This document shows positions 27,757-60,086 of a stretch of 64,000 nt of DNA, piece by piece (position 1 is the first letter of the stretch; the number at the start of each line of letters is the position of its first letter). The notes under the pieces were generated by a model. It had not been told where the DNA came from. It saw only the letters and a list, made by a program, of their open reading frames with translations, and did no database searches. The stretch covers positions 6,133,158-6,197,157 of the forward strand of contig NZ_KB913013.1 of the NCBI RefSeq assembly GCF_000383955.1, read 5' to 3'. The translations under genes were made by a program, and so were the position numbers. This DNA comes from Rudanella lutea DSM 19387 (GTDB taxonomy: Bacteria; Bacteroidota; Bacteroidia; Cytophagales; Spirosomataceae).

Positions 27757-27767
27757 TTGATTCGTGG

Positions 27768-27878: not shown

Positions 27879-27890
27879 CAATTGGCACGA

Positions 27891-31226: not shown

Positions 31227-31234
31227 CTACTAAT

Positions 31235-31377: not shown

Positions 31378-31392
31378 CTAAACCAAGACATT

Positions 31393-32913: not shown

Positions 32914-32920
32914 GCAACCC

Positions 32921-33067
32921 GGACCCTGTCAGTGGTCGTAGACCCTGACAGTGGTCCATCGTGCTGGTGTTGCTAACCAAATCGCAGGCACCTTAGACCC
33001 TGACAGTGGGAGGGTAATCTAAACCCCTGTCAGGGTCTACGACCACTGACAGGGGTTTAGATTACCC
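32921..33067. repeat. Cluster of palindromic repeats between susD and nanA
   Basis: The motif ACCCTGACAGTGG occurs at 32942-32954 and 32997-33009, with a near-copy at 32923-32935. Then arms 33012-33033 and 33046-33067 form a perfect 22-bp inverted repeat. Four more pairs inside it (33034-33037 with 33041-33044, beside a bulged A) extend the hairpin. The arms contain the same CTGACAG core, so all copies belong to one repeat family. No gene fits in this gap, and the element lies within the operon. Confidence 0.8.
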
Positions 33068-33170
33068 GGACCTTTTCACCAAACCATTCACCATTTCCCT
33101 AAAAAAATCATAGGTTGGGATTAGAAGTGTCCCCGGCAGTTGAACGGGGGCACCCTTTACCACATTCGAT

Positions 33171-35232: not shown

Positions 35233-35240
35233 TAGATGGC

Positions 35241-38761: not shown

Positions 38762-38771
38762 CCGCCTATTT

Positions 38772-40346: not shown

Positions 40347-42953
40347 TCACAGTCCCACCTCCAGCCAGCGCAGCTCCAGGCGCTTCCAGATGTTAATGCC
40401 GCCTGCTGTCTCCCGGTACACCAGATACAGATCGTGTGGCCCCGACATCGGTGTCAGCTCCGTGCTGATCTGTTGATTGTTGCCCGGCACCACCGCCAGC
40501 TGCCCCAGCAAGGGACCATCGGGCCGGTCGGCACGGACTTCGAGGGTCCCCGTGAGCCCCGGTGAACTCAGGCCCGCCTTGAGCGACTTGAGCCCCGTCA
40601 GGTCGATCTTGTCGAACGCGATCCACGACCCCTTCTCGTTGTAATTCATCGACGAGGGGGCTCCGTTGCCATTGCGTCGGGCTACCCGGTCGAGCCGCTG
40701 GGCATCGGCCGCGTTGAAACGGGTTGGGTAGAGCCGCAGCAGATCCTGCCCGGTCAGGCCACCCCGGTCCACATATCGGGCCAGCACCACGTAGTTACCG
40801 CCGGGCTGCGTCAGGCTCACGCGCCCTTTGGCCGGTAAATTGGGGCTGGGCTCGTTCAAGGATAGAATGTAGCGAACCATCTCGGCGGCATCCTCGCCCA
40901 GCAACTGAGGGTGCGCCGACATCATGTGGTCTTTAGTCCAGACACCCCCTCCCCCTTGTATGATCTTGTTTGAAAGCGACGCTACCAGCTTCGTGTCGGT
41001 CGGGTTGGCTTCGTAGCGCCGGGCAATCGCCTGCCAGCTGGGGCCCACCGACTGTTGATTGAGCGCGTGACAGGACCGGCAATCGCTCTGCTCGATCAGG
41101 GTTTTGCCTTTGGGGGTGCGTTGGCCGGTAGCCATCAGTCCGGCCACATCTTCGCCTTCAGGCAGGTGGTAGAGCGCCACCGTTGCCCGTTTGGGGTCGG
41201 TGGGTCGGTCTTCCCGGTCTACAATATTCACAGCGTAGTCGACCTGAGAGTTCGGGGCAAAAAATGAGCGGTTGCCTTTCCACTGCACCTGCACAACGGG
41301 CGGTTCGTTGCCTACCCGCACGGGCAGTTGGGCCTCAGCCTGTAAGCCCTGCCGGTCGGTGACACGCACCCGGCAGAGGTAGGTGCCTGGTTTAGTGAAT
41401 GTAAACGCCGGGTTGGGCTGGCGGCTCTGCACGGTTTTACCTCCGAAGAACCATTCGTAGCGAAGGGAGTCGCCGGAATCGTGATCGAAGGATTCGCGGG
41501 CCGAGAACTGGACACGCAGGGGGGCAGCGCCTACGGTTTTGTCGGCCCCAATGCGAGCAATGGGCGTGCGATTCCCCTCATTGAACTCGATGCGTACCAG
41601 AGCCGCGTCGGTATTTTTAGCCCGCCAGTAGCTGCCGTATTCAAGCACGTAAAGCTCACCAGTTGGGCTAAAAGCCATGTCGACCGGGTGGTTGAAGGGC
41701 ATCTGAGGCAAAAAACGCTCGATACGGTTCAGGTCGCCGTTGGGGTGGAGGGCAGCCGTAAAAATCCAGCCGCGCATCCAGTCGTAGAAAAACAGTTTAC
41801 CGTCGAAGTAAGCCGGAAACCGCCGGGCTGAGGCCGGATAGTCCTGTGCATGGAAAACAGGGCCGGCCATGGCGTTGCGCCCACCCGTGCCCAAGGCCGG
41901 AAATTCGGCCGACTCGGCATACGGGTACCAGATAAAGGCCGATTGGGCGGGGGGCAGCTCGGTGAGGCCGGTGTTGTTACGGGAACGGTTTACGGGCCGG
42001 GCCGGGTCGAAGGGGGCACCCGCTTGTTTGGTCTCAAAGTTGTACTCGTGATAAGGCTTGTTGTTGCCTACAAACAGGGGCCAGCCGAAGTTGCCGGGCT
42101 TCCGGGCCTGGTTGATCTCATCGTGACCCCGTGGGCCGCGCCGGAGGCTGTCGTTACCCGCGTCGGGGCCTACTTCGCCCCAGTACAGGAAACCCGTGTG
42201 GGCATCCACCGAGATGCGGAAGGGGTTACGGCAGCCCATGACGTAGATTTCGGGGCGGGTCTGTGGGGTGCCCGGCGCAAACAGGTTGCCGGTCGGAATG
42301 GTGTACGAACCATCGGGCTGAGGTCGGATGCGGAGAATCTTGCCGCGAAGGTCGTTGGTATTGCCCGACGATTTGAGGGCGTCGAAGCGCAGCCGACCGG
42401 GCCGGTCGTCGAAGGGTCCAAACCCGTCGGACTCAAACGGGTTGGTATTGTCGCCGGTGGAAAGAAAAAGATTGCCGTCTCTATCGAACGCGAGCGAGCC
42501 GGCCGAGTGACTCACGCCCTCGTGCAGCAGGGGCACGCGAAGCATCTCAATGCGGTTGGCGAGGCCGGTGGGGGTCAGCTCGAAGCGGGCGAGTACGTTG
42601 GCGTATTCACCGTTGCGGGGCGTGGGGTCACCGTAGTACAGGTAAAGCCATCGATTGGTGGCAAAGCCGGGGTCGAGGGCGAGCCCGAGCAGGCCATCCT
42701 CTCCGGTAGCCCGAACGGCCAGTTTGGCAATCTGTTTTTTCTGGCCGGTGCGGGGGTCCAATTGGTTGAGGGTGCCAATTCGTTCGATGTAGTACAGGAT
42801 GCCCTGGTTGTCGATGGCGAGTTCCATGGGCTCGTTGAGGTCGTTGTCGAGAACGACCTTGGTAAAGCGGGAATCGTCGGGTCGGGGCGTATCTACGGGC
42901 AGGGTAAAAGCCTGCGCGGCAAACAAACTCAAGAGCAGGAAAAACGTTCTCAT
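40347..42953 (-). CDS. Sugar dehydrogenase-like propeller + PKD + cytochrome c + C-terminal sugar-binding domain
   Basis: The 868-aa secreted protein (signal LSLFAAQAFT) is a four-part fusion. Residues about 28-455 form a six-bladed propeller of the glucose/sorbosone dehydrogenase family (GEDGLLGLALDP, CRNPFRISVD, NFGWPLFVGNN). About 462-548 is a PKD domain. A class I cytochrome c domain has heme motif CRSCH (625-629) and a likely Met677/678 ligand. The last about 140 residues resemble a CBM6-like sugar-binding module. I infer oxidation of a sugar, perhaps with PQQ, and electron transfer to the heme. It is last in the third polysaccharide operon and overlaps the esterase stop (ATGA). Confidence 0.85.
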   Translation of the reverse strand: MRTFFLLLSLFAAQAFTLPVDTPRPDDSRFTKVVLDNDLNEPMELAIDNQGILYYIERIGTLNQLDPRTGQKKQIAKLAVRATGEDGLLGLALDPGFATNRWLYLYYGDPTPRNGEYANVLARFELTPTGLANRIEMLRVPLLHEGVSHSAGSLAFDRDGNLFLSTGDNTNPFESDGFGPFDDRPGRLRFDALKSSGNTNDLRGKILRIRPQPDGSYTIPTGNLFAPGTPQTRPEIYVMGCRNPFRISVDAHTGFLYWGEVGPDAGNDSLRRGPRGHDEINQARKPGNFGWPLFVGNNKPYHEYNFETKQAGAPFDPARPVNRSRNNTGLTELPPAQSAFIWYPYAESAEFPALGTGGRNAMAGPVFHAQDYPASARRFPAYFDGKLFFYDWMRGWIFTAALHPNGDLNRIERFLPQMPFNHPVDMAFSPTGELYVLEYGSYWRAKNTDAALVRIEFNEGNRTPIARIGADKTVGAAPLRVQFSARESFDHDSGDSLRYEWFFGGKTVQSRQPNPAFTFTKPGTYLCRVRVTDRQGLQAEAQLPVRVGNEPPVVQVQWKGNRSFFAPNSQVDYAVNIVDREDRPTDPKRATVALYHLPEGEDVAGLMATGQRTPKGKTLIEQSDCRSCHALNQQSVGPSWQAIARRYEANPTDTKLVASLSNKIIQGGGGVWTKDHMMSAHPQLLGEDAAEMVRYILSLNEPSPNLPAKGRVSLTQPGGNYVVLARYVDRGGLTGQDLLRLYPTRFNAADAQRLDRVARRNGNGAPSSMNYNEKGSWIAFDKIDLTGLKSLKAGLSSPGLTGTLEVRADRPDGPLLGQLAVVPGNNQQISTELTPMSGPHDLYLVYRETAGGINIWKRLELRWLEVGL

Positions 42954-44182: not shown

Positions 44183-44193
44183 AAAAGGGTGTA

Positions 44194-46002
44194 TTAATAC
44201 CAGCCTACGTGCTTGGGCTGGGGTAGTATTTGTTTGGGAACGGAAAGGCTCATGCCCTGCCAGCTGGCTTTCAAAACGGCTGCATCAGGCTGAATTTGCG
44301 GTTGCATGGCTTTGTGGTCGGGCGTGGGTGTCCCGACGGAAAGGGTCAGTCCCCAAATGGCTTTTTGCAGATTATTCAGGTCGAAACGGGTCGCTGGGCC
44401 GCTGTAGATAACGTAATCGAGCCAGGCGGTGGTACCGTTACCGCCTTTTTCCCAACGGCCCGGTCGCGTATCCAGAGTAGCCTCAAACAGATTCAGATTT
44501 AGCGGTAACCCTTCAAGCGTCAATCGAATGGGTTGGTTTGGGCCATTGGGTAGACGCAGCGAGTCGGGTAATTGAACATTACCCAGTTCGAACCGTAACC
44601 GCAGATCGCGGGCTTCAAAGGTGCCGTCTTTCAATAAATCGATATGAATGTGTTTGTCGCCGGCTCCTTTGCTCAGGTTGATGGCGGCCAGCACCTTGTC
44701 GTCGCGCTGTTCACTGTAAAAACTGGCCGAGCTGAAATCATACTCGTCGTGCAGAAACCGCAGTTGCAGATACCGGGGCTTGTCGGGCGTTCCCCAATAG
44801 GCCAACAGCGGCCGACGCTGATTCCACATCGACGAGCGGTTGCTTGTGGATAGGGCAAACCGGTCGGTGAGGTAACTCGTTCCCACAATCGGGGGCGCGT
44901 CGGGCTCAAACACGTCGCGTTCGGTGCGCGGGTAGGTGGGTTTGGTGAAATACGCGAGCAGATGAGGGGGGAGCCGATGCCGCAACCGGCCGTAATTGCC
45001 CCAATCGAGGGCTTTGGGGTTTTCAGTAAACAGTTTGCCCTCCGAAGCCTCGTGCAACAGATTATAAAAACCCGGCAATACCAGCGACCGGTACGCCCGG
45101 CTGTGTGGCCCGCTCCATTGGCCCGATGGGGCATGGTAATGGCGGGCAAGCATCGACCAGGCCAGCGTGTACAGTGAGTCGATCCGTTGGCGGGCGCCCG
45201 GCTCTACAATGTGCAGTTGCATCCGGTTCAGGTCTTCGAGGGCCGTAATCGTATAGGTGGGGCTGTTGTATTCCGTGAAGCCCCCTTTTTGCAGGGTGTA
45301 TTGGTACAGGGTTTCGATCTTATCGCGCCCGTAGGTTTGCAGCGTAGGCAGGTCGAACAGGTGCCCAACCAGGTAGGTCACGTAGCTCCCCATCACGGCA
45401 ATGTTGGTGTAATGCGGCCCCATGTTCCGTTTCTGAATGGCTCCGGCCGCCAGCACCAGCGACCGGCGCACGGCCTGTTGCAGGGCAGGGGGGAGGGCTG
45501 GGCCGTGGCTCATCCAGACGTCGAGCAGGGTCACGGCATTGAAATCGGCCATGTTAAAATCCGGGGGCGATTTCTTGGTTTGCAAAGGCTCTTCGAGATA
45601 ATACCCCCAGATGCCCCGCGTCGGTGAGCCGGTCAGGGTATCCTGCAAGCCCACGCATTGGGCAATGATACCGTGCGCCCGGTCGCGAAATTGGGCGTCG
45701 CCTGTGTTGAGCAGGGCCAGCGCATACACCATCGACCCCCGAATCTCGTGCAGCGTGCCGGAGGTCGCGTCGCGGTGGTACTGGTAGCCGTCCACGGTTG
45801 TCGAAAGCATCCGGGCCTTGTCGTCGTATCGTTTATGAATCCCGTCGAGCAGTTTGAGCAGAGTTTGCTGTTGGGGCGCACTCAGCCGGATCGGGTTCAG
45901 CTGAATGGCGTGGGTGGATTGCGCTGATACCTCTGTGCAGATACAGGAGAGTAAGAAAAGGTGTAGTAGACCGGATATAGCCCGATTGAAAAAGAGTTTC
46001 AT
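44194..46002 (-). CDS. Unassigned secreted protein, candidate polysaccharide lyase
   Basis: I cannot place this 602-aa protein in a named family. It has a signal (LFLLSCICTEVSAQ). The N-terminal about 330 residues look like an alpha/alpha toroid and the rest like a beta-sandwich, the build of several lyase families (PL8, PL17, PL21 and others). Conserved-looking polar clusters are KRNMGPHYTN (Asn193, His197, Asn200), GFTEYNSPTY (Glu244, Tyr245, Asn246, Tyr250) and WSGPHSRAY (His300, Arg302, Tyr304), a His/Asn/Tyr/Arg set such as lyases use. Its operon has a GH105, an enzyme that acts on lyase products, and no other lyase candidate. A hydrolase or a binding protein is also possible. Confidence 0.6.
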   Translation of the reverse strand: MKLFFNRAISGLLHLFLLSCICTEVSAQSTHAIQLNPIRLSAPQQQTLLKLLDGIHKRYDDKARMLSTTVDGYQYHRDATSGTLHEIRGSMVYALALLNTGDAQFRDRAHGIIAQCVGLQDTLTGSPTRGIWGYYLEEPLQTKKSPPDFNMADFNAVTLLDVWMSHGPALPPALQQAVRRSLVLAAGAIQKRNMGPHYTNIAVMGSYVTYLVGHLFDLPTLQTYGRDKIETLYQYTLQKGGFTEYNSPTYTITALEDLNRMQLHIVEPGARQRIDSLYTLAWSMLARHYHAPSGQWSGPHSRAYRSLVLPGFYNLLHEASEGKLFTENPKALDWGNYGRLRHRLPPHLLAYFTKPTYPRTERDVFEPDAPPIVGTSYLTDRFALSTSNRSSMWNQRRPLLAYWGTPDKPRYLQLRFLHDEYDFSSASFYSEQRDDKVLAAINLSKGAGDKHIHIDLLKDGTFEARDLRLRFELGNVQLPDSLRLPNGPNQPIRLTLEGLPLNLNLFEATLDTRPGRWEKGGNGTTAWLDYVIYSGPATRFDLNNLQKAIWGLTLSVGTPTPDHKAMQPQIQPDAAVLKASWQGMSLSVPKQILPQPKHVGWY

Positions 46003-46087
46003 GCGTTTATTGCAATTCGGCTGCCTGGTTGGATAAGTGATTCGTTGCGGCTGTTTACCTAATACACAGTACTGAAGCAGCTGTTTT

Positions 46088-47398
46088 TTATTTCGTGATC
46101 GAAGTCATTTTAACAGCAACCGGTTGCGAAAGCTGTTGAATAAATTGACGCAGGTAGTCGCGAAAGTAGGCCGGGTCGCGGAAACCGGGATCCGACAATT
46201 CCCAGCCGCCCAGGGCGTAGTAGGTGAGGGGCTTTCCGGTCTGCCCGTTCATTTTGGCGTAGTAACTCAGGGCAACGGGGCCTTTGGTTGGGGCCTCGCC
46301 CACACCGTCAAACAGGGCCTCAGGAACCACAATCGCCAGCCCGAGCCAGTATTCGCGGTTGTACGATTGTTTGTCGTGCGTGAACAGGGCCACCCAACCG
46401 TCGGCTTTGAGTACCTCAACGGGCTTCTGAGTCGCCACGCGGGGTAGCCCAATCAGTAGGGTTTCGTCGCCTTGCAGGTTATGTAGCTGTACCGTGTTTT
46501 GGTAGGCGTACATACCCGGCCAGATAGTCGGTTGCTCCACCAGCCGGTAGTCGCGGTCGGGGCGGGGTTTACAGTGGCGATGGTCGAGTTCAAGCGCGGC
46601 CCTGACTGGTCCCGACGCCAGCACCCGAAGCCGACTGCTTTCAACGGTATGCACCGAATCGGTGGCCATTACGCCCATGCGGTACAGCCCGTTGCCAATC
46701 TGCAAACCTACGCCCCCAAGGCCAAGCGAAAGCCCTTCGGCGTTGCCAACCGGCAGTACATCGCGGCCCCAATCGCGCAGCACGTGGTAATTGTCGATTA
46801 CGGCGCCGGTGGGGGTCAGCCCTACGCTATCGGGCGATAGGGCCGGGGTTCGTTTGCCAAACAAATCTTTGGCGTTGCGCCCATCGAAATAGTGCCGGAA
46901 CCCCACCTTATCGTTTTCCCAGGTCGGACCATCGGTTTGGTACGGTTGGTAGCCCTGCCGAATGGGCAATTCATGGGCATAAAAGGTATCTTCGGTCAAC
47001 GGTCGCACAGGGGTGTAGGCACTGCTACGCTTGCCAAACCGCACCCGTACCCTGTTCGGATAAACAGGTAACGTATCAACGGTATGTACCACCAGCGAAC
47101 GGCTTGCTTTGGCCGGTACGTCCATCACCCAGAACAGTTCATCCCATTGGCCGTCGGCATCGGTATCCTCCAACTGAGCTGGCATTGTCTTCCCGGCTTC
47201 GTCAATCAGCACCGGATACAGCCGGACGTTTGGACTCATTCCAAGTGCCTTGCGACCCACCCGCACCGGTTTCTGGGTCAACGCTACCCCCGACGCGTTG
47301 CTGACATGAAGCGTACCGAGTTTTTTGCCCGGCGGAGTTGGTTCAGAAACCACCCCGCCGGTGAGAAGCAGAGCGAAAAGTAGGAGAGAAAGATACAT
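46088..47398 (-). CDS. DUF4861-family secreted protein
   Basis: The 436-aa protein has a signal peptide and matches the DUF4861 pattern as I know it: LYPVLIDEAGKTMPAQLEDTDADGQWDEL-type start (about 60-90), GPTWENDKVGFRHYFDGRNAKDLFGK (about 155-180) and DNYHVLRDWGRDVLPVG. The fold appears to be a large beta-sandwich. Such genes are often found in loci with GH88/GH105 enzymes, so it may act on an unsaturated-uronate or rhamnose-containing glycan, but no activity is established that I know. It lies 38 bp after the DUF5017 gene and 85 bp before the 602-aa gene. Confidence 0.75.
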   Translation of the reverse strand: MYLSLLLFALLLTGGVVSEPTPPGKKLGTLHVSNASGVALTQKPVRVGRKALGMSPNVRLYPVLIDEAGKTMPAQLEDTDADGQWDELFWVMDVPAKASRSLVVHTVDTLPVYPNRVRVRFGKRSSAYTPVRPLTEDTFYAHELPIRQGYQPYQTDGPTWENDKVGFRHYFDGRNAKDLFGKRTPALSPDSVGLTPTGAVIDNYHVLRDWGRDVLPVGNAEGLSLGLGGVGLQIGNGLYRMGVMATDSVHTVESSRLRVLASGPVRAALELDHRHCKPRPDRDYRLVEQPTIWPGMYAYQNTVQLHNLQGDETLLIGLPRVATQKPVEVLKADGWVALFTHDKQSYNREYWLGLAIVVPEALFDGVGEAPTKGPVALSYYAKMNGQTGKPLTYYALGGWELSDPGFRDPAYFRDYLRQFIQQLSQPVAVKMTSITK

Positions 47399-47436
47399 GC
47401 GTGTAATGGGATGTTGCCGCTCCGGCGGACCGGTCT

Positions 47437-48405: not shown

Positions 48406-48430
48406 GATGGATGTTTAGTTTTTGGTTTTT

Positions 48431-48540
48431 GGTTTATCGTTTTTGGTGTTTCCCAGTTCGGTTTAGAGGACATAAACTTTCTGTTCCATGAAAGGCTATG
48501 TTCTGCACTCGCCTGAACCAAAAACCAAAAACGATAAACC
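48431..48540. repeat. 17-bp perfect inverted repeat in the susD-DUF5017 gap
   Basis: Arms 48431-48447 (GGTTTATCGTTTTTGGT) and 48524-48540 are perfect reverse complements, 76 nt apart, and the flanks add more TTTTGG/CCAAAA pairing. In the transcript this is a long-loop hairpin just after the susD stop. It may slow decay or partly terminate, lowering DUF5017 and downstream expression relative to susCD. Confidence 0.6.
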
Positions 48541-48550
48541 AGAAACCCCT

Positions 48551-50419: not shown

Positions 50420-50440
50420 GGAATTGCGCTGAATGGACGG

Positions 50441-53400
50441 TTAGAACGTGACGGTAGCACCGGCTGTGATTGTGATGGCGCGGGGGTAGGGCGTGAAATC
50501 GTAGCCACCCGCCAGCACCGAATAGCCTGAGCTGGGTTGAATAAACGTGTAGCCCGTGCCGGTTGCCGTAGCGTTGACACCCGTACCCCCAATCGGGCTG
50601 TTGGCCGGGTTCGGTGAACGGTACGTCGATACTTCGGGGTCAATGCCCGAGTAGCGGGTAAACGTGAACAGGTTCTGCGCCGACCCAAACACCCGGATGC
50701 TGTTGGCGCTGATTTTTTTGGCCCAAACAGCGGGCAGGCCGTAGCTCAGCTGCACGGTTTTAATACGCAAAAACGATGCGTCTTCGATCACCCGCGATGA
50801 AGGCCGGGGGTTGGGCGATCCGGCGTCGCCCTTGAGGTTGTAGCGCGCCCGTGGAATATCGTTCGTTGGGTTCGAGGGGGTCCAGCGGTCGGCGTAGGTG
50901 GCAAACTGATTACCGTTGAGGAAATACCCGCCCGTCGATTCAAACGCGATTCGGTTGGCATTGAGCACCTTGTTGCCGTAGCTCCACTGGGTAAATACGC
51001 TCAGGGTGAGCCCTTTGTAGGTAAAGTTGTTCGACAAACCACCGGTGTGGATGGGTAGCGGAGTGCCGAGGGTAGTCTGATCGTTGGCATCCACTACGCC
51101 ATCGCCGTTGATGTCTACGTACTTTGGGTCGCCGGGCTGCACGTTGGCCGAGTAGGTGGGTACGCCGTTGCGCAACACGTAAGCCCCGTTGGCCAGCCGG
51201 TCGAAATCGTCAAACTGATACACCCCGCCCCACTTGTAGCCGTAGAACTGCGAAATGGGGGCTCCGGCGCGGGCTATCCATGCCGACGCGCCACCGGGCA
51301 ACCCCCAGGCCGTGAGTCGGGCGTCGAGGCCGTCGTAAAAGTTCAGGATCTTGCTCCGGTTGAAGCTGATGTTGAAATTGCTCGTCCAGCTAAAGTTTTT
51401 GCGCTGCACGTTGGTGGTTTGCAACGTAAACTCGAAGCCCGAGTTGCGGAGGTTCCCCGTGTTCTGAAACTGTGAGTTCGTTCCATTGCTGTAACCTGCC
51501 AGAAACGGAAGTGGTACACCCAGCAAAAAGTTGCGGGTCCGGCGGTTGTAGTAGTCGGCTTCAAGTTCGATGCGGTTGTTCAGGAACGACAGGTTCAAAC
51601 CGAGGTCAAACTCATTGGTGGTTTCCCAGGTCAGGTTGTCGTTGCCGTAGAAAAAGGGCACTACGCCAAGGCTGTAATTATTGTTAAACGGGTAGCCGTG
51701 GCCCGTGTTCAGGGCTCCGTACTGCGAGAGGTAACTAAAATCGCCCACTTTGTTGTTGCCCACAGCCCCGTAGCTGAGCCGCAACTTGCCGTCGCTCAGA
51801 ATATAGCTGAATTTCTTCATGAAGGGTTCTGCCCCAAACCGCCACGCAAACGCCCCCGACGGGAAATAGCCCCACTGCTTACCGGGCGTGAACTTCGACG
51901 ACCCATCCGACCGGGCCGAGAACGTAAACAGGTAGCGGTCGCGGAAGGTGTAGTTGGCGCGAGCCAGAAACGAGAACATCTGCCAGTGCGAGCCCGACGT
52001 AGCCGGTCCTGTAGCCGTACCCGTGTTGAGGCTGATAATGCCGAGGTACTCGGTGGCGGGCGGGATGTTGATGACCCGGAACCCGTGCGAGGCCGTGCGG
52101 GCGTACTGGTACGTGAACCCCACGAGGGCGTCGAGGCTGTGGTCTTTGCCGAACCGGTTTCGGTAGCTCAGGATGTTCTCGTTGAGCCAGTTGCCGTTGA
52201 TCACGTTGGTGTACCCGCCGTTGATGCCGTTGGGATTGGCAATGGCCCCGGCCGCATTGCGGAATAGGTTACCCTGAATGGTTTGTGAGTTGTAAAACGT
52301 CTCCTGCCGCAGGGTGGTGGTGTTCAGGCCGCCCGAAATACGCAGTTTGAAATGATCCAGAAACGAGTACTCCAGATACGCGTTGATGGTAGCCGTGTTG
52401 TTAATGTTTTTCCGGTACTCGTTTTGTGCCTGTACCAACGGGTTAATCAGGTTGTCGCCGAGCGAGGCCGTGCTGTTGCCGCTCGAAAAGTCCTGAAAGG
52501 CGATGCTGTCGATCAGAGCCGCAGCCAGGTCCTGATTGCCCAGCCCCGATACCGGGCGGTACTGCCACATGCCCTGCACCACCCCGCCCCCGTTGGCCCC
52601 TGAGGGTACCGTGCCGTAGGTTGAGGTGTTGGCGTAACTACCCGCGAGCCCGACTTTCAGGCGGCTCCGGATGTGCTGATCGAGGCTGAAACGGCCGTCG
52701 TACCGGCGTAGACCCGTGTTGATCACAATCCCTTTCTGGTCGAAAAGCGAACCCGACACGGCAAACCGGGTGTCGGCGTTGCCCCCGCTGATGTTGAGCG
52801 AGTGGGTCATCTGCGACCCCTGCCGCAGCACCTGATCCTGCCAGTCGGTGCCGGCCACATTGCGGTACGATTCGAGGGTGTTGTTGGGGTCGTTTTGGCC
52901 GAGGTAAATGGCCCGGAACCGGTTGAAGGGCGCGGCCGGGGTGCTCGTGATGCTGTCGAGTTCGAGCTGTAGCCGTACAAACTCGTACGGGCTCATCATT
53001 TTAACCCGGCGCACGTCGCGCTGAACCCCGCCCGACACGTTGTAGGTAACCCGCACCGGGCCGGGTTTGCCCCGCTTCGTGGTGATCAGAATAACGCCGT
53101 TTGCCCCGCGGGCACCGTAAATGGCAATAGACGACGCATCTTTCAGCACTTCGAGCGATTCAATGTCGTTGGGATTGATGGCGTTGATGTCCATGTTCTC
53201 GATCGGAAACCCGTCGATCACAAACAGGGGCGACGAGTCCTGACTGACCGAGCTGCCCCGCACCACAATGTTGGCGGCCGAGCCGGGCTGACCGTCGCCG
53301 GAAGTAACCACGACCCCGGCAATGCGACCCGCCAGTGCCTGATCGTACGAGGGAACCGAAGCCCGTTGCATCTCTTCCACGTTGGCCTTGCCCACAGAGC

Positions 53401-53839
53401 CAGTCACGTCTTTTTTCCGCACTTCGCCGTACCCCACCACGACCACCTCTTCCAGGCTGTTGTTGTCTTCGGCAAGGGTAACGGTCAGTTTTTTCTGGTT
53501 GCCCACGGTCACGGCCTTTTTCAGAAATCCAATCGAGCTGAACAGGAAGATGCTGCGCTCAGAGGGCACCTGGATCGAAAACCGGCCGTCGGCATCGGTG
53601 GTGGTGCCGGTGTTGGTGCCCTGCACCAGAATGTTCACGCCCGGCAGGGTACCCCCTTTGGCGTCGGCTACCGTGCCGGTTACGGTAATCCGGGTTTGTT
53701 GGGCCGTGGCAAATGGCAAGGTCAGCAGGGTCAGTAGCAGAGCCATCAGTACCGATCGGCCCGGCAGCAATGGGTGCGGGCCTGTGCGTTGAGCGGCCCG
53801 GCCAGTAGTTCGGGGGCGTAAAGTTGGTGTCATAAACAT
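50441..53839 (-). CDS. SusC/RagA-family TonB-dependent transporter (third polysaccharide locus)
   Basis: The longer frame starts inside the GH105 gene, so I use the ATG at 53839 (MFMTPTLRPRTTGR; Met at 53833 is equally possible), 19 bp after the GH105 stop. The protein of 1132 aa has an Arg-rich leader and signal (LMALLLTLLTLPFATAQ), a carboxypeptidase-regulatory-like domain (VTGTVADAKGGTLPGVNI), the SusC box EEVVVVGYG, a plug (about 130-260) and the barrel. It imports oligosaccharides from an unknown uronate-containing glycan. Position 2 in the operon, between GH105 and susD. Confidence 0.94.
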   Translation of the reverse strand: MFMTPTLRPRTTGRAAQRTGPHPLLPGRSVLMALLLTLLTLPFATAQQTRITVTGTVADAKGGTLPGVNILVQGTNTGTTTDADGRFSIQVPSERSIFLFSSIGFLKKAVTVGNQKKLTVTLAEDNNSLEEVVVVGYGEVRKKDVTGSVGKANVEEMQRASVPSYDQALAGRIAGVVVTSGDGQPGSAANIVVRGSSVSQDSSPLFVIDGFPIENMDINAINPNDIESLEVLKDASSIAIYGARGANGVILITTKRGKPGPVRVTYNVSGGVQRDVRRVKMMSPYEFVRLQLELDSITSTPAAPFNRFRAIYLGQNDPNNTLESYRNVAGTDWQDQVLRQGSQMTHSLNISGGNADTRFAVSGSLFDQKGIVINTGLRRYDGRFSLDQHIRSRLKVGLAGSYANTSTYGTVPSGANGGGVVQGMWQYRPVSGLGNQDLAAALIDSIAFQDFSSGNSTASLGDNLINPLVQAQNEYRKNINNTATINAYLEYSFLDHFKLRISGGLNTTTLRQETFYNSQTIQGNLFRNAAGAIANPNGINGGYTNVINGNWLNENILSYRNRFGKDHSLDALVGFTYQYARTASHGFRVINIPPATEYLGIISLNTGTATGPATSGSHWQMFSFLARANYTFRDRYLFTFSARSDGSSKFTPGKQWGYFPSGAFAWRFGAEPFMKKFSYILSDGKLRLSYGAVGNNKVGDFSYLSQYGALNTGHGYPFNNNYSLGVVPFFYGNDNLTWETTNEFDLGLNLSFLNNRIELEADYYNRRTRNFLLGVPLPFLAGYSNGTNSQFQNTGNLRNSGFEFTLQTTNVQRKNFSWTSNFNISFNRSKILNFYDGLDARLTAWGLPGGASAWIARAGAPISQFYGYKWGGVYQFDDFDRLANGAYVLRNGVPTYSANVQPGDPKYVDINGDGVVDANDQTTLGTPLPIHTGGLSNNFTYKGLTLSVFTQWSYGNKVLNANRIAFESTGGYFLNGNQFATYADRWTPSNPTNDIPRARYNLKGDAGSPNPRPSSRVIEDASFLRIKTVQLSYGLPAVWAKKISANSIRVFGSAQNLFTFTRYSGIDPEVSTYRSPNPANSPIGGTGVNATATGTGYTFIQPSSGYSVLAGGYDFTPYPRAITITAGATVTF

Positions 53840-53858
53840 ACGAGTGAAGCGGGTTGAA

Positions 53859-55703
53859 TCAGCGGCCCGATTGGGTCGGGGGTTGGTTATTGAGCATTTT
53901 TTCGATTTCGATACCGGCAAACAACACCGCAAACAGGCCGTGGGTGTCGTTGTCGTAGAAGGGGCGCGTGAGGTAGTAGTTCACATCTTCGGAGCACATG
54001 GTACCCATACAGATGTTGTGCACCGTGCCGTCGGGGTCGATCTGGGTTTTGAGGGCATCCCAGGCGTTCATGACCGCCGGTTTAAATCGTTTGGCGTCGA
54101 GCCAGCCGTGCTGAATCCCGCGTGCCATGCCCATCGCGAAAATGGCCGTTCCAGACACCTCCCTGGGTGAGTCGGGCCGGTCGAGCACGTTGAGCCAGAA
54201 TCCGCTCTTGTCCTGCAGGCGAGCCAGCGATTCCATGTGTTTGCGGAAATGATTCAGTATGGGTTTGTACCGGGGGTGGTCGGCGGGGAGGTTCATGAGT
54301 ACCTCACTCATGGCCCACACGGCCCAGCCGTTGGCCCGCGACCAGTGCGGGAGTTTGGCCGGACGGTTTGAGTAGCGGGCGTGCATGTAGAGGTTGGCGT
54401 CGGCGTCCCACACCTGTTCGTTGAAGCCCATCACCTGACTCGCGGCATCGTCCAGAAAGGCTTTTTTCTGCGCCGGGTCGGTCACGTAGCGTGAGGCCTG
54501 CACCAGAAACGGGATGCCCATAAACATATCGTCGACCCAGGTGGTGTATTTCTCCGGTGTAGTGCGGGTGTAAATGCCCGAGCCCGGCAACCGAAGCTGT
54601 TCGTTCTGAGCGTAGTGGAGCATTTTGTCGATAAACTGTACGTACTCCGAGCGTCGGGCAAAAGTTGGTTGTTGCCGTAGCCGGTACACAAACGGGATAG
54701 AGGGCGCGAGCGTGAAATCGAGCAGGGGCGTGTTTACCAGATGGTAGTTGGCCGAAGTTACGGCGTTGAGAGCGCCTACCTGATGACTCACAAACGGGAT
54801 ACTTTCGAGCTGGAAATCGCAAAACCGGCTGGCGTATTCGTCGTATTGTTTCTGGCCCGATAGTTCGGCTAAGTGCTGCATGGCCCAGGCAACACCCCCG
54901 TTATGGTAGTTCCAGTGGTAGTTGGTGCCCCATTCCTTCGAGTCGATCAGGTCGCCCAACACATCAACTTTCGGAATAGTCCAGGTTACGGGGCTGTCGA
55001 GACCAACATACATTCGCCCAAACCGAATCTCTTTTTCGGGCCCGTACGCCGTGCGCAGGCCCGTGCGGGCGTTGGCCGTGGTCGGGTTGGCAAACGGCCC
55101 CATGATAAGCCAATTGGTCATTTTGGCCACACGGGGGTCTACGTCGGGCACGTTGGCCAGCCCAATGGCCGGGTAGGTTATTTTCTGGGCCAGAATCGCC
55201 CCTTTCTGGCTCGGCGGTTGCAGGTACACCCGCCATTCGTTGCCGCGCGTTTCCGATTTAATGAGCAGTTGGTTGGCGCCTTCTTTCAGCGTCAGCTGCA
55301 ACTGATTGGGGAGTTCAATGCTCCGCTCTTCGTGCTCCAGTTTGATGCTGTGGTCGCCTTCTTTTTCGTAAACTACCTGACCGTTGAGCCAGATCTTGCA
55401 GCCATCGTTATGCTCTACCTGCATGGTCAGGGTCTGAGCCTGAGGGCTGGTGAGGTGGGTGTAGGCGTAGGCAACGGCGGGTTTACCGAGAGTCAGGCTA
55501 CGCCCGAAGTCGACTACGTGCAGGCCGTTGAAAGTCTGACCCACGGGCCGGGGCACCAGCTGATACCGGAAGGGGGTGTCGCGGATGAGTTTGTCGCCGA
55601 TGCGCTTCACCACCGCCAGCGGGGTTTCGGTCGCGCCCGGCTGAGCCGCTACGTGGCCGCCCCAGCCGAGCAGGGCAACGAGAAACAAAGAAATCGTTTT
55701 CAT
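53859..55703 (-). CDS. GH105 unsaturated uronyl hydrolase with N-terminal beta-domain
   Basis: The start at 55703 gives a signal peptide (MKTISLFLVALLGWGGHVAAQ); the longer frame is upstream non-coding DNA. In the 614-aa protein residues about 22-240 form beta-rich domain(s) (KIWLNGQVVY, NQLLIKSETRGNEW), and about 255-605 the alpha/alpha barrel of GH105 (YteR/RhiN family). The catalytic Asp lies in TWVDDMFM (Asp391/392), with HWSRANGWAVWA at about 453-464. These enzymes hydrate and release 4,5-unsaturated uronic acid from ends made by lyases. It is the first gene of the eight-gene leftward operon, divergent from the HTCS regulator. The N-terminal domain is unusual, since GH105 proteins are often about 380 aa. 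Confidence 0.9.
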   Translation of the reverse strand: MKTISLFLVALLGWGGHVAAQPGATETPLAVVKRIGDKLIRDTPFRYQLVPRPVGQTFNGLHVVDFGRSLTLGKPAVAYAYTHLTSPQAQTLTMQVEHNDGCKIWLNGQVVYEKEGDHSIKLEHEERSIELPNQLQLTLKEGANQLLIKSETRGNEWRVYLQPPSQKGAILAQKITYPAIGLANVPDVDPRVAKMTNWLIMGPFANPTTANARTGLRTAYGPEKEIRFGRMYVGLDSPVTWTIPKVDVLGDLIDSKEWGTNYHWNYHNGGVAWAMQHLAELSGQKQYDEYASRFCDFQLESIPFVSHQVGALNAVTSANYHLVNTPLLDFTLAPSIPFVYRLRQQPTFARRSEYVQFIDKMLHYAQNEQLRLPGSGIYTRTTPEKYTTWVDDMFMGIPFLVQASRYVTDPAQKKAFLDDAASQVMGFNEQVWDADANLYMHARYSNRPAKLPHWSRANGWAVWAMSEVLMNLPADHPRYKPILNHFRKHMESLARLQDKSGFWLNVLDRPDSPREVSGTAIFAMGMARGIQHGWLDAKRFKPAVMNAWDALKTQIDPDGTVHNICMGTMCSEDVNYYLTRPFYDNDTHGLFAVLFAGIEIEKMLNNQPPTQSGR

Positions 55704-55725
55704 GCGTATGATCTGGAAAGTCGAG

Positions 55726-55744
55726 CCTGTCTGGGGCAGACAGG
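55726..55744. promoter_or_regulatory. Small hairpin in the GH105 leader
   Basis: CCTGTCTG and CAGACAGG form a perfect 8-bp stem with a 3-nt loop, 22 bp before the GH105 start. It may affect ribosome access or mRNA stability. No clear -7 box was found for this operon. Confidence 0.4.
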
Positions 55745-55845
55745 AGGAGAAACAGCCTAAAACAATGGGGTATGGGTGAAATAGAACCTTGGCGGTATTA
55801 TTTTGCACAAAGTTTATTTCTGGCGGCTCGCGGGGCTTGTCTGAA

Positions 55846-55874
55846 TGTTGCAAATGCTGTTTCGAGTGTTGCAA
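55846..55874. promoter_or_regulatory. 21-bp-spaced direct repeat TGTTGCAA, candidate HTCS site
   Basis: TGTTGCAA occurs at 55846-55853 and again at 55867-55874, a start-to-start distance of 21 bp, two turns of the helix. AraC-type DNA-binding domains, such as that at the end of the HTCS regulator, bind direct repeats on one face. The site lies in the 258-bp gap between the divergent HTCS gene and the GH105-led operon. Confidence 0.5.
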
Positions 55875-55961
55875 TGTTTGAGAAATCGGAAAAGCCCCTG
55901 TCAAATTGAACGACAAACGGGGGTTACAATGCAGACAAGACCGTGACTGTCTCCTATTTCC

Positions 55962-58900
55962 ATGATGGACTTCTATCCCAACCGAACTATACCTTGCTTA
56001 TCGTTTCTGGCCCGATGGGCTTGCCTCCTCGCCGGTCTTGTGGGCGCATATCTGTCCCATGCCGGGCCAGTCCTGCAAACCGAAAACCGGCCGGTCATTA
56101 TCTCCGACTTGTTATTTGAGCATTTCCGTAGCCGACAGGGTCTGCCCGACGACCGCATCCGGGCGTTCCATCAGGATCGGCAGGGTTACCTCTGGGTGGG
56201 TACAATGAACGGGCTCGCCCGATACGATGGGTACTCATTTCGGAAATTCTACCGGCAGCCGGGACCGAACGGGCTGGTGGGTAACTGGATCAATGCCATC
56301 TGCGAAGACAGCAGCGGGAATCTGTGGTTTGGCACCAAAGAAGGACTGAGTTTTTTCGACCGGCAACGCGAGCAGTTTACCAGCTTCCGGCAGCAGCCCG
56401 GCAAGGCAAATTCATTGGTCAACAACCTGATTACCTCGCTTTGTTTTGATCGGCAGGGGGTGTTGTGGATTGGCACAGCGGGTGGGTTGTGCGCCTACGA
56501 CCCGGCCCGGCAGACGTTTCGGCAGTACCGGCAATACCCGCTCAACGAGTACATCGCCCGAATTATCCGCTCCGATGGCCCCTACCTCTGGGTGGCGACC
56601 AATGCCGGGCCGGTGCGGTTCGATGTGCGGACGCAGACCGGGCAGCACTTTCCGGTCGAAGCCCGACCCGGTCCCTACGGGGAGCGGTTCTGGTCGGTGA
56701 TTGAACTGAACCGCCAACTGTACTTAGGCACGGGAGCTGAGGGTTTGCTCCGGCTCCGGTTCGATGCCAAACAGAACCGCTACGTGGGCTTTGAATCGGT
56801 GAACCGGTTTGCAGGCAGCACGGCCTCCCTCGACCGCACCGAGATTTACGATATTTGCCCGACGCCCGCGGGGGGCGTGTGGCTGGGTACCAACCGGGGC
56901 GTGGCCTATATTGACCGGCTGGGGCACCCCGACGCCCGTTTGCAACTGGTACAACACAACCCCGTGGTGGAGCAAAGCCTCAGCCACGACCGGGTATACC
57001 GGCTTCTGCTCGACCGAACGCAGGTGCTTTGGTGCGGCACCGAGATGGGGCTGAACAAGCTCGATCTGGGTCAGATGCCTTTTCGGTATTTCACCTTTGC
57101 CAATCAACAGTCTAAAGATCAGATCCGTAGTATCACCGCCGACCGCCGGGGCACCATCTGGCTCGGCACGAGTAAATCGGGCCTGTATGCTTACCAACCC
57201 GCCGACCGCTCGTCGGCGTATTATCGGCTGGGTACCGATGCCGGTTTTCAGAATTACCACCGCTCGGTGGCCATCGACAGCGCGCAACGCCTGTACGTGG
57301 GCACGCTCAATGGGGTGTTTCGGCTCGATGCCGCGCGACCTTCGGCCGTGATCGACGTGCTGCCCGGCACTACCGTGTTTGCCATGCTGACCGATTCGCG
57401 CGGGCGGGTCTGGATTGGCACCCGGCAGGGTCTGCTCCGCATCGGGCCCGATGGTAGCCGTACCAACGTGCCCATCCGAGCGGCCAATGCCGAACTGGTG
57501 CGGGCTATTTTTGAAGATCACCGGGGCGGTATCTGGATCGGTTTTGAAAACGCGGGCCTGTTTTATCTGGATCCCAATACGGGGCAGGTTACCCACCTGT
57601 CGGCAACGTCGGCGGGGCAGGGGTTGCTGGGCTCCACGGTCTACGCCATTGTCGAACAACCCAAAGGCACGATTTGGGTCGGTACCGAGTCGGGGCTGAA
57701 CAAACTGACGCTTGGGCCAGCGCACCGAAATAGGGGAACCTCTACGCCGGGGCCGATAATGGTGGCGCAGTACACCGAAAAAGACGGCCTGCCCGATCCC
57801 TCAGTCAACGGTATTTTACCCGATCGGCAGGGGCATTTGTGGATGAGCACACTCAAAGGACTGGTGCGTTTCGAACCGGCCAATGCGTCGGTGCGGGTGT
57901 ACCTGCCCACCCTTATTTTCAGCCATAACTGCCACTACCGCTTTCCCGACGGGCGGTTGGTGTTTGGCACTGCCGATGGGTTTGTGCTGTTCGACCCCGC
58001 CCGGATTCCGACCGACGATTCGCCCCCACGCGTGGTGATCGACAACCTCAAACTGTTTAACCGCGAAGTGAGCATCGGGCAAACGCTCAACGACGATGTT
58101 CTGCTGCCCCGTACCCTTTCTGACTTGCCAACCCTCCAACTGAATTACCGCAACAATGTGTTTACGGTGGGTTTTACGGCGCTTCATTTTGTGAACCCCG
58201 CCCGGAATCGCTACGGCTATCGGCTTGTAGGCTTCGACCGAAACTGGACGCTCACCGATGCGGGCAACCGGTCGGCTACCTACACCAACCTCGACCCCGG
58301 TACGTACCGGTTTGAGGTTCGGGCGGCCAACAATGTGGGGCATTGGGTGAGCGCACCCACCGTGCTGACGGTTGAGATGTTGCCGCCCCCCTGGAAAACC
58401 TGGTGGGCCTACACGTTGTATGTCCTGTTGCTGGCGGGGGCGCTGTACGCGGTTGGGCGGTATCTGCTGCTGGTGGCCCGTCAGCGGCAACAGTTGCTGT
58501 TTGAGCAGCGCGAGAAAGAGCAGATGCAGAAGCTCAACGGACTCAAGCTGGAGTTTTTTACCGACATCTCGCACGAATTCAGAACCCCCCTCACGCTCAT
58601 TACCAGCCCCGTTGAAGATTTACTGACTAACCCGAATCTCGACCGGAAAACCCGCGCGACCGTGCAGCTGATTCAGCGCAACTGCCAGAAACTGCTCCAT
58701 CTGCTCGACGAACTGATGACGTTTCAGAAACTCGAACAGGGTAAACTCAAGCTTAAACCGGAGGAGCTGGATCTAGTGGCTTTCGCCCGCGAAGTATTCG
58801 ACAGTTTCGAACCACTGACGGTAAAAAATGGCCTTGATTACCGATTTACGGCCTCAACGCCTTCCCTGCGGTTTACGGGCGATCCCGATAAGCTCGAAAA

Positions 58901-60086
58901 AATTCTAAACAACCTCCTGAACAACGCCATCAAGTTTACGCCATCGGGCGGGTACGTGCAGTTGAAGCTGACGGTTAATCCCGGCCTGCAGCAGGTGGTG
59001 ATCGAGGTGGAGGACTCGGGCAAGGGCATCACGCCCGATGAGCGGCAGCACCTGTTTGAGCGATTTTTTCAGTCCGAAACCAACAAGTATGGTGTTGGCG
59101 TAGGGCTTTCGCTCACCAAAAGTCTGGTAGAACTGCATGGAGGTCAGATCGGGGTAGAGAGTGAGCCCGGTCGGCGGACCTGTTTTACAATCACCTTGCC
59201 CGCGCCACTTGCCCCGCTTACAACCGCGGCTCCGCCGGTAGTGCGGGAGGTTGCGCCTGAGCCGCTTACCCCGGCTTTACCCACCCGCCCGGTTTTGCCG
59301 CTGCGCGACGACCGGCCGGTGTTGCTCATTGCCGACGACCATGATGATATCCTTGACTATCTCGAAGGGCTTTTTGCCCATAGTTACCGAATTGTCAGGG
59401 CTGCCAACGGGGTTGAGGCTCTGCGGGCGATTGGGAAGGGAGAACCTGATCTGATTATCAGTGACGTAATGATGCCCGAAATGGACGGGATCACCCTTTG
59501 CCGCACGCTCAAAACTGACCTGAACACCTGCCATATTCCGCTTATTTTGCTGACGGCTCGCTCGGCCATTGCGCATCAGATCGAGGGCATCGGTACCGGG
59601 GCCGACGACTACGTACCCAAGCCGTTTCATCCCGAACTGCTGCGGGTGCGGGTGCAGAGTTTGCTGGAGTCGCGGCAACGGCTGTTCGAAAAGTTTCGGG
59701 CGGGTGGGGCTGTTCTCCCTAAAGACATCGCCCGGAACCCGCTCGATGAGGCTTTCCTGCAAAAGGTGATGGACATTGTGACGGCCAACCTGAGCAACGA
59801 CGAGTTTAGCGTGGAGCAACTCGGCGAAGGGGTAAACATGAGCCGGAGCAACCTATTTCGAAAACTGAAAGCCCTCACTGATCAAACCCCGGTCGAATTT
59901 ATTTACTACCTCCGGCTCAAGCACGCGGAGCAGCTCCTGCTCGAACGTCGGCTGAATATTTCCCAGATAGCCTTTGAAGTTGGCTTCAAAAGTGCGTCGG
60001 CCTTCAGCAAGGCGTTTCGTAACCAGTTTGGCAAAGCTCCCAGCGAATATCTGAGCGATAAACTTGCCGGGCAGCTGTCACCCTAA
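55962..60086 (+). CDS. Hybrid two-component system (HTCS) regulator
   Basis: The 1374-aa protein joins sensor and regulator in one chain. After the signal come two-component propeller repeats (about 50-720; recurring GxxWxGT-xGL motifs such as GYLWVGTMNGLARYDG) and a Y_Y_Y domain (about 730-805), the periplasmic sensor. A membrane segment (about 813-835) leads to HisKA with His871 (DISHEFRTPLT), an HATPase (NNAIKFTPSGG; GVGVGLSLTKSLVELHGG), a receiver with Asp1168 (SDVMMPEMDG) and an AraC-type helix-turn-helix (about 1270-1370, ISQIAFEVGFKSASAFSKAFRNQFG). It senses an oligosaccharide and activates the divergent GH105-led operon. MMD allows a start at 55962 or 55965. Confidence 0.95.
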   Translation: MMDFYPNRTIPCLSFLARWACLLAGLVGAYLSHAGPVLQTENRPVIISDLLFEHFRSRQGLPDDRIRAFHQDRQGYLWVGTMNGLARYDGYSFRKFYRQPGPNGLVGNWINAICEDSSGNLWFGTKEGLSFFDRQREQFTSFRQQPGKANSLVNNLITSLCFDRQGVLWIGTAGGLCAYDPARQTFRQYRQYPLNEYIARIIRSDGPYLWVATNAGPVRFDVRTQTGQHFPVEARPGPYGERFWSVIELNRQLYLGTGAEGLLRLRFDAKQNRYVGFESVNRFAGSTASLDRTEIYDICPTPAGGVWLGTNRGVAYIDRLGHPDARLQLVQHNPVVEQSLSHDRVYRLLLDRTQVLWCGTEMGLNKLDLGQMPFRYFTFANQQSKDQIRSITADRRGTIWLGTSKSGLYAYQPADRSSAYYRLGTDAGFQNYHRSVAIDSAQRLYVGTLNGVFRLDAARPSAVIDVLPGTTVFAMLTDSRGRVWIGTRQGLLRIGPDGSRTNVPIRAANAELVRAIFEDHRGGIWIGFENAGLFYLDPNTGQVTHLSATSAGQGLLGSTVYAIVEQPKGTIWVGTESGLNKLTLGPAHRNRGTSTPGPIMVAQYTEKDGLPDPSVNGILPDRQGHLWMSTLKGLVRFEPANASVRVYLPTLIFSHNCHYRFPDGRLVFGTADGFVLFDPARIPTDDSPPRVVIDNLKLFNREVSIGQTLNDDVLLPRTLSDLPTLQLNYRNNVFTVGFTALHFVNPARNRYGYRLVGFDRNWTLTDAGNRSATYTNLDPGTYRFEVRAANNVGHWVSAPTVLTVEMLPPPWKTWWAYTLYVLLLAGALYAVGRYLLLVARQRQQLLFEQREKEQMQKLNGLKLEFFTDISHEFRTPLTLITSPVEDLLTNPNLDRKTRATVQLIQRNCQKLLHLLDELMTFQKLEQGKLKLKPEELDLVAFAREVFDSFEPLTVKNGLDYRFTASTPSLRFTGDPDKLEKILNNLLNNAIKFTPSGGYVQLKLTVNPGLQQVVIEVEDSGKGITPDERQHLFERFFQSETNKYGVGVGLSLTKSLVELHGGQIGVESEPGRRTCFTITLPAPLAPLTTAAPPVVREVAPEPLTPALPTRPVLPLRDDRPVLLIADDHDDILDYLEGLFAHSYRIVRAANGVEALRAIGKGEPDLIISDVMMPEMDGITLCRTLKTDLNTCHIPLILLTARSAIAHQIEGIGTGADDYVPKPFHPELLRVRVQSLLESRQRLFEKFRAGGAVLPKDIARNPLDEAFLQKVMDIVTANLSNDEFSVEQLGEGVNMSRSNLFRKLKALTDQTPVEFIYYLRLKHAEQLLLERRLNISQIAFEVGFKSASAFSKAFRNQFGKAPSEYLSDKLAGQLSP

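Follow-up and report, generated by a model that had tools for sequence, protein, structure and literature searches.

A 64,000-nucleotide stretch of the Rudanella lutea DSM 19387 genome (contig NZ_KB913013.1, positions 6,133,158 to 6,197,157; hereafter the window) contains an operon in which a GH105 unsaturated uronyl hydrolase is encoded together with a 602-amino-acid (aa) protein without a recognised sequence family, here given the working name X602 (44194-46002). Based on its predicted fold, its invariant residues and its neighbourhood, X602 is probably a β-eliminase acting on uronic-acid glycans, which would make the unsaturated uronate that the GH105 enzyme removes. A lyase is slightly favoured over a dehydratase: a sugar as the leaving group, removed mostly at chain ends, has close to an even chance, while water as the leaving group is possible but less probable.

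The X602 family and its predicted fold

No family was found for X602 in Pfam (best E-value 0.052, short of the cut-off) or NCBIfam. One sequence search and two profile searches of the PDB had best E-values of 0.24 and 0.86 and no match, respectively, and the chains concerned are unrelated. The family is thus set apart by comparison with Pfam, NCBIfam and PDB, and it may belong to an existing CAZy family. Literature on new polysaccharide lyase (PL) families, PL37, PL43-46, GH154 and dehydratases, and GH105 loci, searched as text and not by sequence, held no description recognisable as the X602 family.

A pattern search for X602 across the genome collection yielded 259 stretches, 207 of which were confirmed to encode a relative. 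By record title, these loci belong to Bacteroidota, Bacillota (mostly Paenibacillaceae and Clostridia), Opitutae and other Verrucomicrobiota, Planctomycetota, Chloroflexi, Acidobacteria and Poribacteria. The locus analyses below rest on the best 80 of the 207 confirmed loci and are biased towards closer members. Within the same taxonomic family, 23 of 150 genomes contain a match. Seven of these, including R. lutea itself, encode full-length relatives (37-100% identity), and the other 16 encode only relatives with open reading frames (ORFs) of mostly 510-580 aa that are 25-30% identical over approximately 160-210 residues. The R. lutea genome carries one full-length X602 and one distant, shorter relative. 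The latter (L027, C1:1517297-1517773 plus flanks) belongs, with L008-L030, to a second unnamed family of approximately 515 aa that is distant kin of X602; Pfam scans of two of its members (L022 and L028) gave nothing significant. Two X602 paralogues per locus occur in L041 (6314-11707), where the pair flanks a GH28 gene, and in L043. A plasmid search returned one match, in Streptomyces (30% identity over 75% of the query, E-value 4e-47), and a phage search returned none.

An AlphaFold2 model was built from an alignment of 67 X602 sequences (mean pLDDT 92.4, pTM 0.89). It comprises a helical toroid (residues 42-319), followed by the strands of a β-sheet domain (359-589). Foldseek comparison of this model with the PDB gave 26 matches with an E-value ≤ 0.001, of which 19 are polysaccharide lyases and one is a dermatan sulfate epimerase. 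The ten matches below 1e-5 are the exo-alginate lyase Atu3025 (three chains), heparinase III BT4657, GAGases VII and II, the epimerase, heparinase II (two entries) and chondroitinase AC; apart from the epimerase, they represent PL15-, PL12-, PL35-, PL21- and PL8-type lyases. X602 is therefore predicted to have the toroid plus antiparallel β-sheet architecture of polysaccharide lyases, at low TM-scores (see below). A family search and a structure comparison had been proposed in an earlier note on this DNA. The former gave no Pfam, NCBIfam or PDB match, and the latter gave a confident model with polysaccharide lyases as its best fold matches.

Asn200, Tyr250, Arg302, Tyr304 and His451 are invariant in all 67 sequences, as are Y75, H76, N150, R192, Y198, E244, N246, W393 and Q395; no Lys is present among the invariant or nearly invariant columns. 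The catalytic set published for the toroid-type lyase clan consists of an Asn, a Tyr and a His of the β-sheet domain, as in PL33 (N238/Y291/H444; PMC11848413), PL35 (N192/Y246/H401), PL12 (N240/Y294/H424), PL17 (N201/Y258/H413) and PL39 (N186/Y239/H405; PMC12088678). Like the toroid lyases (PL8, PL12, PL15, PL17, PL21, PL33, PL35 and PL39), the X602 model shows a two-domain architecture and a Tyr in the toroid; its invariant Asn200, at a similar distance from the Tyr, and its invariant His451 in the β-sheet domain may correspond to their Asn and His. The Asn-Tyr spacing of X602 is 50 residues, against 54 in PL12, 57 in PL17, 53 in PL33, 54 in PL35, 53 in PL39 and 52 in GH154; it is wider in PL8 (59) and PL23 (63). 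In contrast, the Tyr-His spacing of 201 in X602 exceeds the 130-166 of PL12, PL17, PL33, PL35 and PL39. X602 further differs from the known toroid lyases in that it has no PDB sequence match and no Pfam domain, and in that its activity is a prediction. When the X602 profile was compared by hhalign with that of 28 Hepar_II_III loci, the toroids aligned with a probability of 79.3, with Tyr250 on the SPxY motif.

From gene content, conservation, predicted fold, neighbourhoods and a gene fusion we infer the following course. X602 would form a 4,5-unsaturated uronic acid at the non-reducing end of a chain or oligosaccharide, and GH105 would then hydrolyse it. Asn200, helped by Arg302, would neutralise the C6 carboxylate; Tyr250 and His451 (or Tyr304) would take the C5 proton and protonate O4, upon which the C4 substituent would leave.

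Association with GH105 and cellular compartment

The GH105 protein of the operon is closest in the PDB to 3k11 (phmmer E-value 2.7e-49) and to YteR (1nc5, 1.2e-26), and its VDDMFMG stretch aligns with LDGLYMG of YteR, which carries the YteR-type catalytic Asp. The Pfam model Glyco_hydro_88 covers GH105 and GH88 alike, and several PDB relatives of the operon enzyme are named GH105. In YteR, Asp143 is reported to be important for activity (PMC4528949).

A match of more than 200 bits to the GH105 profile was taken as a strong GH105. Such a match was found in 27 of the 58 X602 loci of Bacteroidota and Bacillota, namely in 15/37 of the Bacteroidota group (which includes one metagenome-assembled genome (MAG) labelled Phycisphaerae) and in 12/21 of the Bacillota; these counts are lower bounds, as many loci end at contig ends. 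In 19 of the 58 loci, GH105 either directly neighbours X602 in the same orientation or is fused to it. Against a background of 516 GH88 matches in 48 of the 49 genomes that contain these loci (approximately 298 Mb), about two would be expected in 58 loci of at most 22 kb. Weak GH105-like matches in L032, L048, L049 and L054 (46-80 bits) were not counted; including them gives 31/58. A Pfam check of matches below 200 bits identified one as DUF2264 and three others as true GH88, so the cut-off is conservative.

In a Tannerellaceae MAG (L047:2778-5579), X602 and GH105 form a single chain of 934 aa with Glyco_hydro_88 at residues 622-929. A chance read-through is unlikely, because the GH105 part has no signal-like stretch of its own. 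Four other loci (L061, L062, L064 and L081) show a long GH105 like that of the window (ORFs of 596-634 aa) directly before X602 and a protein of 1176-1228 aa after it; the latter had no Pfam match in L062, the member scanned.

The N-termini, judged by a simple hydropathy rule rather than SignalP, separate the two groups. A hydrophobic N-terminus is present in 33/37 X602 proteins of the Bacteroidota group, three of the four exceptions having truncated or misplaced starts, and in 0/21 of the Bacillota; 10/37 of the former also carry a lipobox by a simple rule. The X602 of the window has a hydrophobic signal-type N-terminus with a possible lipobox at Cys20. Among the strong Bacillota GH105 ORFs, 10/12 likewise have no hydrophobic N-terminus, one of the remaining two being truncated and one having an uncertain start. 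Both enzymes thus seem to work in the same compartment. A scan of 92 Bacillota neighbours placed solute-binding proteins (14) and ABC permeases (12) among the most frequent types, and the Bacillota pair should act on imported oligosaccharides. Because the Bacillota X602 and most of their GH105 partners lack signal peptides, and because the two are fused in one MAG, X602 is seen here as an enzyme of oligosaccharides or chain ends; a purely endo-acting secreted depolymerase is disfavoured by the same signal-less pair.

Lyase, dehydratase and other readings

Several observations weigh against a GH105-paired eliminase. No strong GH105 was found in the sequence covered for 31/58 Bacteroidota and Bacillota loci, nor in any of the 22 X602 loci of other phyla, in 20 of which the X602 ORF was recovered. 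Because of this 0/22, the members of other phyla have a different partner or role. The ten best Foldseek matches have low query-normalised TM-scores (0.29-0.43), for which domain movement may be the cause, a large one having been simulated for PL33 (PMC11848413). Four of the remaining six Foldseek matches are GH146-type arabinofuranosidase chains and two are unrelated entries. In the profile comparison, the Asn of Hepar_II_III aligns with Tyr198, two residues off Asn200, and the β-sheet domains show no profile similarity (probability 0.2), for which reason we only infer the role of His451. The control pair Hepar_II_III and GH105 reached 63.8, so the value of 79.3 for X602 is only suggestive; the other controls gave, for X602 with GH105, 0.3 once the L047 fusion was taken out of the GH105 set and 0.7 with a cleaned set, 5.1 with DUF2264 (16 loci) and 0.2 with SusD. 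The Hepar_II_III and DUF2264 sets consist of the longest ORF per locus, taken without individual checking, with one wrong ORF (L182) removed. The approximately 515-aa relatives keep N200, Y250, R302 and Y304 and have an Asn in place of H451. Finally, the neighbours of X602 in other genomes, which include GH106, GH95, α-L-fucosidase, GH43, GH3, GH2, GH92, GH27-like, GH28 and GH30 proteins and sulfatases, indicate no single substrate.

DUF4861, encoded next to X602 in the operon, was found in 14 of the 59 relatives' genomes searched, and 14 regions were examined. GH88 was confirmed in six of them: L168, L169 (by coordinates shared with the GH88 match of the Rudanella genome) and L171, L173, L180 and L181 (by Pfam). 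Hepar_II_III or DUF2264 likewise occurs in six (L168, L169, L170, L171, L180 and, by local profile only, L181). In two genomes of the same family, GH88 and DUF4861 form a single chain (L180:7861-9876 and L181:7891-9861), with Hepar_II_III-like genes in both loci. Given these recurrent neighbours and the fusions with GH88, DUF4861 seems to accompany unsaturated-uronide enzymes generally. Its NCBIfam match (NF058564) is far below cut-off, its pattern had no match in viral contigs, and a full-text search of one literature collection returned no paper on DUF4861, alone or with a lyase. Locus L168, a further polysaccharide utilisation locus, lies in the R. lutea genome itself (G000:C1:1480000-1499500) and contains SusCD-like genes, GH88, a DUF2264 protein and a second DUF4861 gene. 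The DUF2264 protein matches PDB entries 8oi4, 9o4u and 9nwf, the last two of which are named glucuronate dehydratases; Pfam DUF2264 is therefore equated here with GH154. The layout of L168 resembles that of the X602 operon, with GH154 in place of X602. The other DUF2264 gene of this genome (C1:1958263) lies approximately 2 kb from a Hepar_II_III gene (C1:1955720).

X602 could also be a uronate dehydratase that removes water (O4) from unsubstituted terminal glucuronic acid (GlcA) and primes it for GH105, the pair acting as a two-step uronidase. This forms one half of the favoured β-eliminase reading, separated from the other by the leaving group, and we hold it tentatively. Such a role is known at saturated chain ends for P29_PDnc, which feeds GH105 in ulvan use (PMC8511951), and for the GH154 dehydratase BcGDH, which feeds GH88 in chondroitin use (PMC12269599); the statement in the earlier note that only lyases make the GH105 substrate consequently no longer holds. 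GH154/DUF2264 enzymes (BcGDH, BT_3677) resemble X602 in having GH88/105 partners, and by residue numbering their Asn-Tyr-Arg-Tyr set may correspond to that of X602: N177/Y229/R285/Y289 of BcGDH (PMC12269599) are 52, 56 and 4 residues apart, N200/Y250/R302/Y304 of X602 50, 52 and 2. DUF4861 neighbours GH154 in the R. lutea genome and in G002 as it adjoins X602, and in L168 it stands beside GH154 and GH88 as if GH154 had replaced X602. An end-acting dehydratase also fits the signal-less Bacillota members, the single-chain fusion and the great variety of exo-hydrolases near X602. On the other hand, X602 has no DUF2264 match in Pfam and negligible profile similarity to it (the 5.1 given above), and its β-sheet domain with the invariant His451 is absent from the BcGDH chains in the PDB, which are approximately 400 aa long. 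The ulvan-oligosaccharide dehydratase P29_PDnc (= Cdf79930, PMC6168547) resembles X602 in build, with approximately 600 aa and a modelled toroid plus β-sandwich, and its authors used PL37 to find its relatives. It loses activity when Asp248, Lys303 or Arg230 is changed (PMC8511951), whereas X602, compared by description, has no such invariant Lys.

We regard the other readings as less probable. A classical endo-acting lyase, the keystone depolymerase of the locus, would suit the signal-type N-termini (33/37) and lipoboxes (10/37) of the Bacteroidota group, the lyase-type two-domain prediction and the absence of any other recognised depolymerase from the seven scanned proteins of the operon; it is nevertheless unlikely, given the 0/21 signal-type N-termini in Bacillota, the fusion to an exo-hydrolase in L047 and the position of X602 directly before a PL12-type heparinase (PF16889) in L039. 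About equally unlikely is that X602 makes no unsaturated uronate at all and is a C5-epimerase-like enzyme, a hydrolase or a non-catalytic toroid protein. Foldseek ranks dermatan sulfate epimerase 1 fifth and includes four GH146-type hydrolases, fold and Tyr are common to epimerase and lyases (PMC11848413), and an eliminase activity of X602 is itself predicted; against this reading stand the fully conserved polar set and the occurrence of X602 near or fused to GH105, for which the substrates known are unsaturated uronides. A role of DUF4861, in place of X602, as source of the unsaturated uronate or as the depolymerase appears improbable. The two GH88-DUF4861 chains and the GH88 genes in 6/14 regions would agree with it, but Hepar_II_III or GH154 is also present in 6/14, which gives DUF4861 the look of a companion; a two-sequence model reached a pLDDT of only 33.7, its fold was not predictable and the model was not used.

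Two further lyase systems provide comparisons. The operon GH105 recalls rhamnogalacturonan I (RG-I) systems, with YteR and 3k11 (BT4174, from an RG-I locus) as its nearest PDB relatives; unlike those systems, the genome gave no RGI_lyase match in a profile search, and no rhamnosidase is found among the seven operon proteins scanned. PL27 leaves unsaturated GlcA for GH105, as the rhamnose-glucuronate lyases of PL27 and PL42 generally would. X602 matched no PDB chain by sequence, and PL27 is represented in the PDB.

The suggestion in the earlier note that X602 represents a new or little-known lyase family is thus supported in part: it fits the lyase-type predicted fold, the invariant Asn, Tyr and His residues, the recurrent GH105 neighbourhood and the X602-GH105 fusion. 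The same data also fit a uronate dehydratase, and the Bacillota members without signal peptides point to oligosaccharide processing rather than to a secreted depolymerase.

The operon, its surroundings and substrate clues

The operon lies on the minus strand in tight order: GH105, SusC, SusD, DUF5017, DUF4861, X602, an SGNH esterase and a GSDH-PKD-cytochrome c-CBM6 protein; the gene of a hybrid two-component regulator (HTCS) is divergent (Table 1). A Pfam scan of the HTCS and of seven operon proteins (all but SusC) bears out the gene content read by the earlier note and its observation that these seven include no recognised lyase. With a SusCD pair (SusC by homology only), a regulator and carbohydrate enzymes in one operon, the locus is a polysaccharide utilisation locus (PUL). 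As anticipated, it is the third in the window, preceded by an alginate-type and a sialic-acid-type PUL; a 583-aa protein without a Pfam match (22789-24540) lies at the edge of the latter. As listed, the SusC ORF runs to 53932 and the GH105 ORF to 55916; from the sequence, the likely SusC start is near 53839.

Table 1. Features of the X602 locus and of the two preceding loci, in window coordinates
Feature	Position	Strand	Basis
Alginate-type PUL, chondroitinase-B-type and Hepar_II_III/alginate-lyase-type proteins	about 5450-17464		
Sialic-acid-type PUL, BNR, NANM, SASA, GH20	about 22789-40067		
GSDH-PKD-cytochrome c-CBM6 (glucose/sorbosone dehydrogenase) protein	40347..42953	-	Pfam GSDH 3.8e-35, PKD, CBM_6, Cytochrom_C
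SGNH/GDSL esterase, signal-type N-terminus	42950..44182	-	Pfam Lipase_GDSL_2 4.3e-15
X602, 602 aa, predicted uronate β-eliminase, toroid plus β-sheet	44194..46002	-	AlphaFold2 model and Foldseek; no sequence-family match
His451 codon, β-sheet domain, proposed second catalytic residue	44650..44652	-	invariant 67/67
Arg302 codon, R-x-Y304, proposed carboxylate/Tyr contact	45097..45099	-	invariant 67/67; spacing near BcGDH
Tyr250 codon, in FTEYNSPTY, proposed catalytic acid/base	45253..45255	-	invariant 67/67; on SP-x-Y motif of Hepar_II_III
Asn200 codon, proposed carboxylate neutraliser	45403..45405	-	invariant 67/67
DUF4861 protein, recurrent companion of unsaturated-uronide enzymes	46088..47398	-	Pfam 6.1e-83
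DUF5017 protein, presumed surface glycan-binding lipoprotein	47437..48405	-	Pfam 1.7e-42; lipobox Cys17
SusD-like glycan-binding protein	48551..50419	-	Pfam SusD_RagB 6e-35
SusC-like TonB-dependent transporter	50441..53839	-	position before SusD; similarity to SusC-like ORFs in relatives
GH105 unsaturated uronyl hydrolase, 614 aa from likely ATG at 55703	53859..55703	-	Pfam Glyco_hydro_88 6.2e-63
Divergent intergenic region operon/HTCS, presumed promoter region	55704..55961	.	gene layout
HTCS	55962..60086	+	Pfam Reg_prop, Y_Y_Y, HisKA, HATPase_c, Response_reg, HTH_18 (AraC)

A search of the R. lutea genome with four families gave three Hepar_II_III matches (one of them in the window), two DUF2264/GH154 matches, nine Glyco_hydro_88 matches, six of which exceed 200 bits, and none to RGI_lyase; within this four-family scope, a lyase for the system may be located elsewhere in the genome. 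Much of the locus has a close relative in Rudanella paleaurantiibacter (L031), where X602 is 90% identical. SGNH homologues lie at most five genes from X602 in 4/78 loci, including this orthologous one, the 78 being those of the 80 in which the X602 ORF was recovered. Dehydrogenase-like and cytochrome c proteins adjoin X602 in two genomes, as the GSDH type in the window and as a DUF7133-cytochrome c protein in Rhabdobacter roseus (L037:11922-14510), and an electron-transfer step is possible.

In the proposed pathway, binding and uptake of an acylated uronate glycan or oligosaccharide would fall to the SusCD pair and DUF5017, and its deacylation to the SGNH enzyme; X602 would make the unsaturated end and GH105 would release the unsaturated uronate. 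DUF4861 would assist some step, and the HTCS would sense a product.

Naming a substrate for X602 was considered and rejected, as the neighbours in other genomes are too varied. The rhamnogalacturonan, arabinogalactan and algal targets listed in the earlier note are, for the same reason, none of them singled out. In Telluribacter humicola, the PL12-type heparinase directly downstream of X602 (L039:11916-13949) comprises Hepar_II_III_N and C domains. Such varied neighbours are more in keeping with two enzymes that together remove terminal uronates from many glycans than with a pair devoted to a single polymer. More speculatively, X602 may found a further family of carbohydrate dehydratases or exo-uronate lyases, sequence-unrelated to GH154, that makes up a portable two-step uronidase with GH105, the pair being located in the cytoplasm of Bacillota, exported by Bacteroidota and in one case fused, with DUF4861 as an accessory common also to GH154-GH88 and heparinase-GH88 versions.

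X602 makes a good candidate for the step that the pathway lacks. Judged against Pfam, NCBIfam and PDB, its family is cautiously taken as new, within a known kind of enzyme. Present in at least 207 confirmed loci of several phyla, the family matched nothing in these three by sequence, yet it combines a confident fold prediction with invariant polar residues and a recurrent partner. DUF4861 is linked here to unsaturated-uronide metabolism. Once assigned, the activity of X602 would annotate PULs and Paenibacillus sugar operons with an adjoining GH105, and it would reveal whether such loci follow a lyase or a dehydratase logic.

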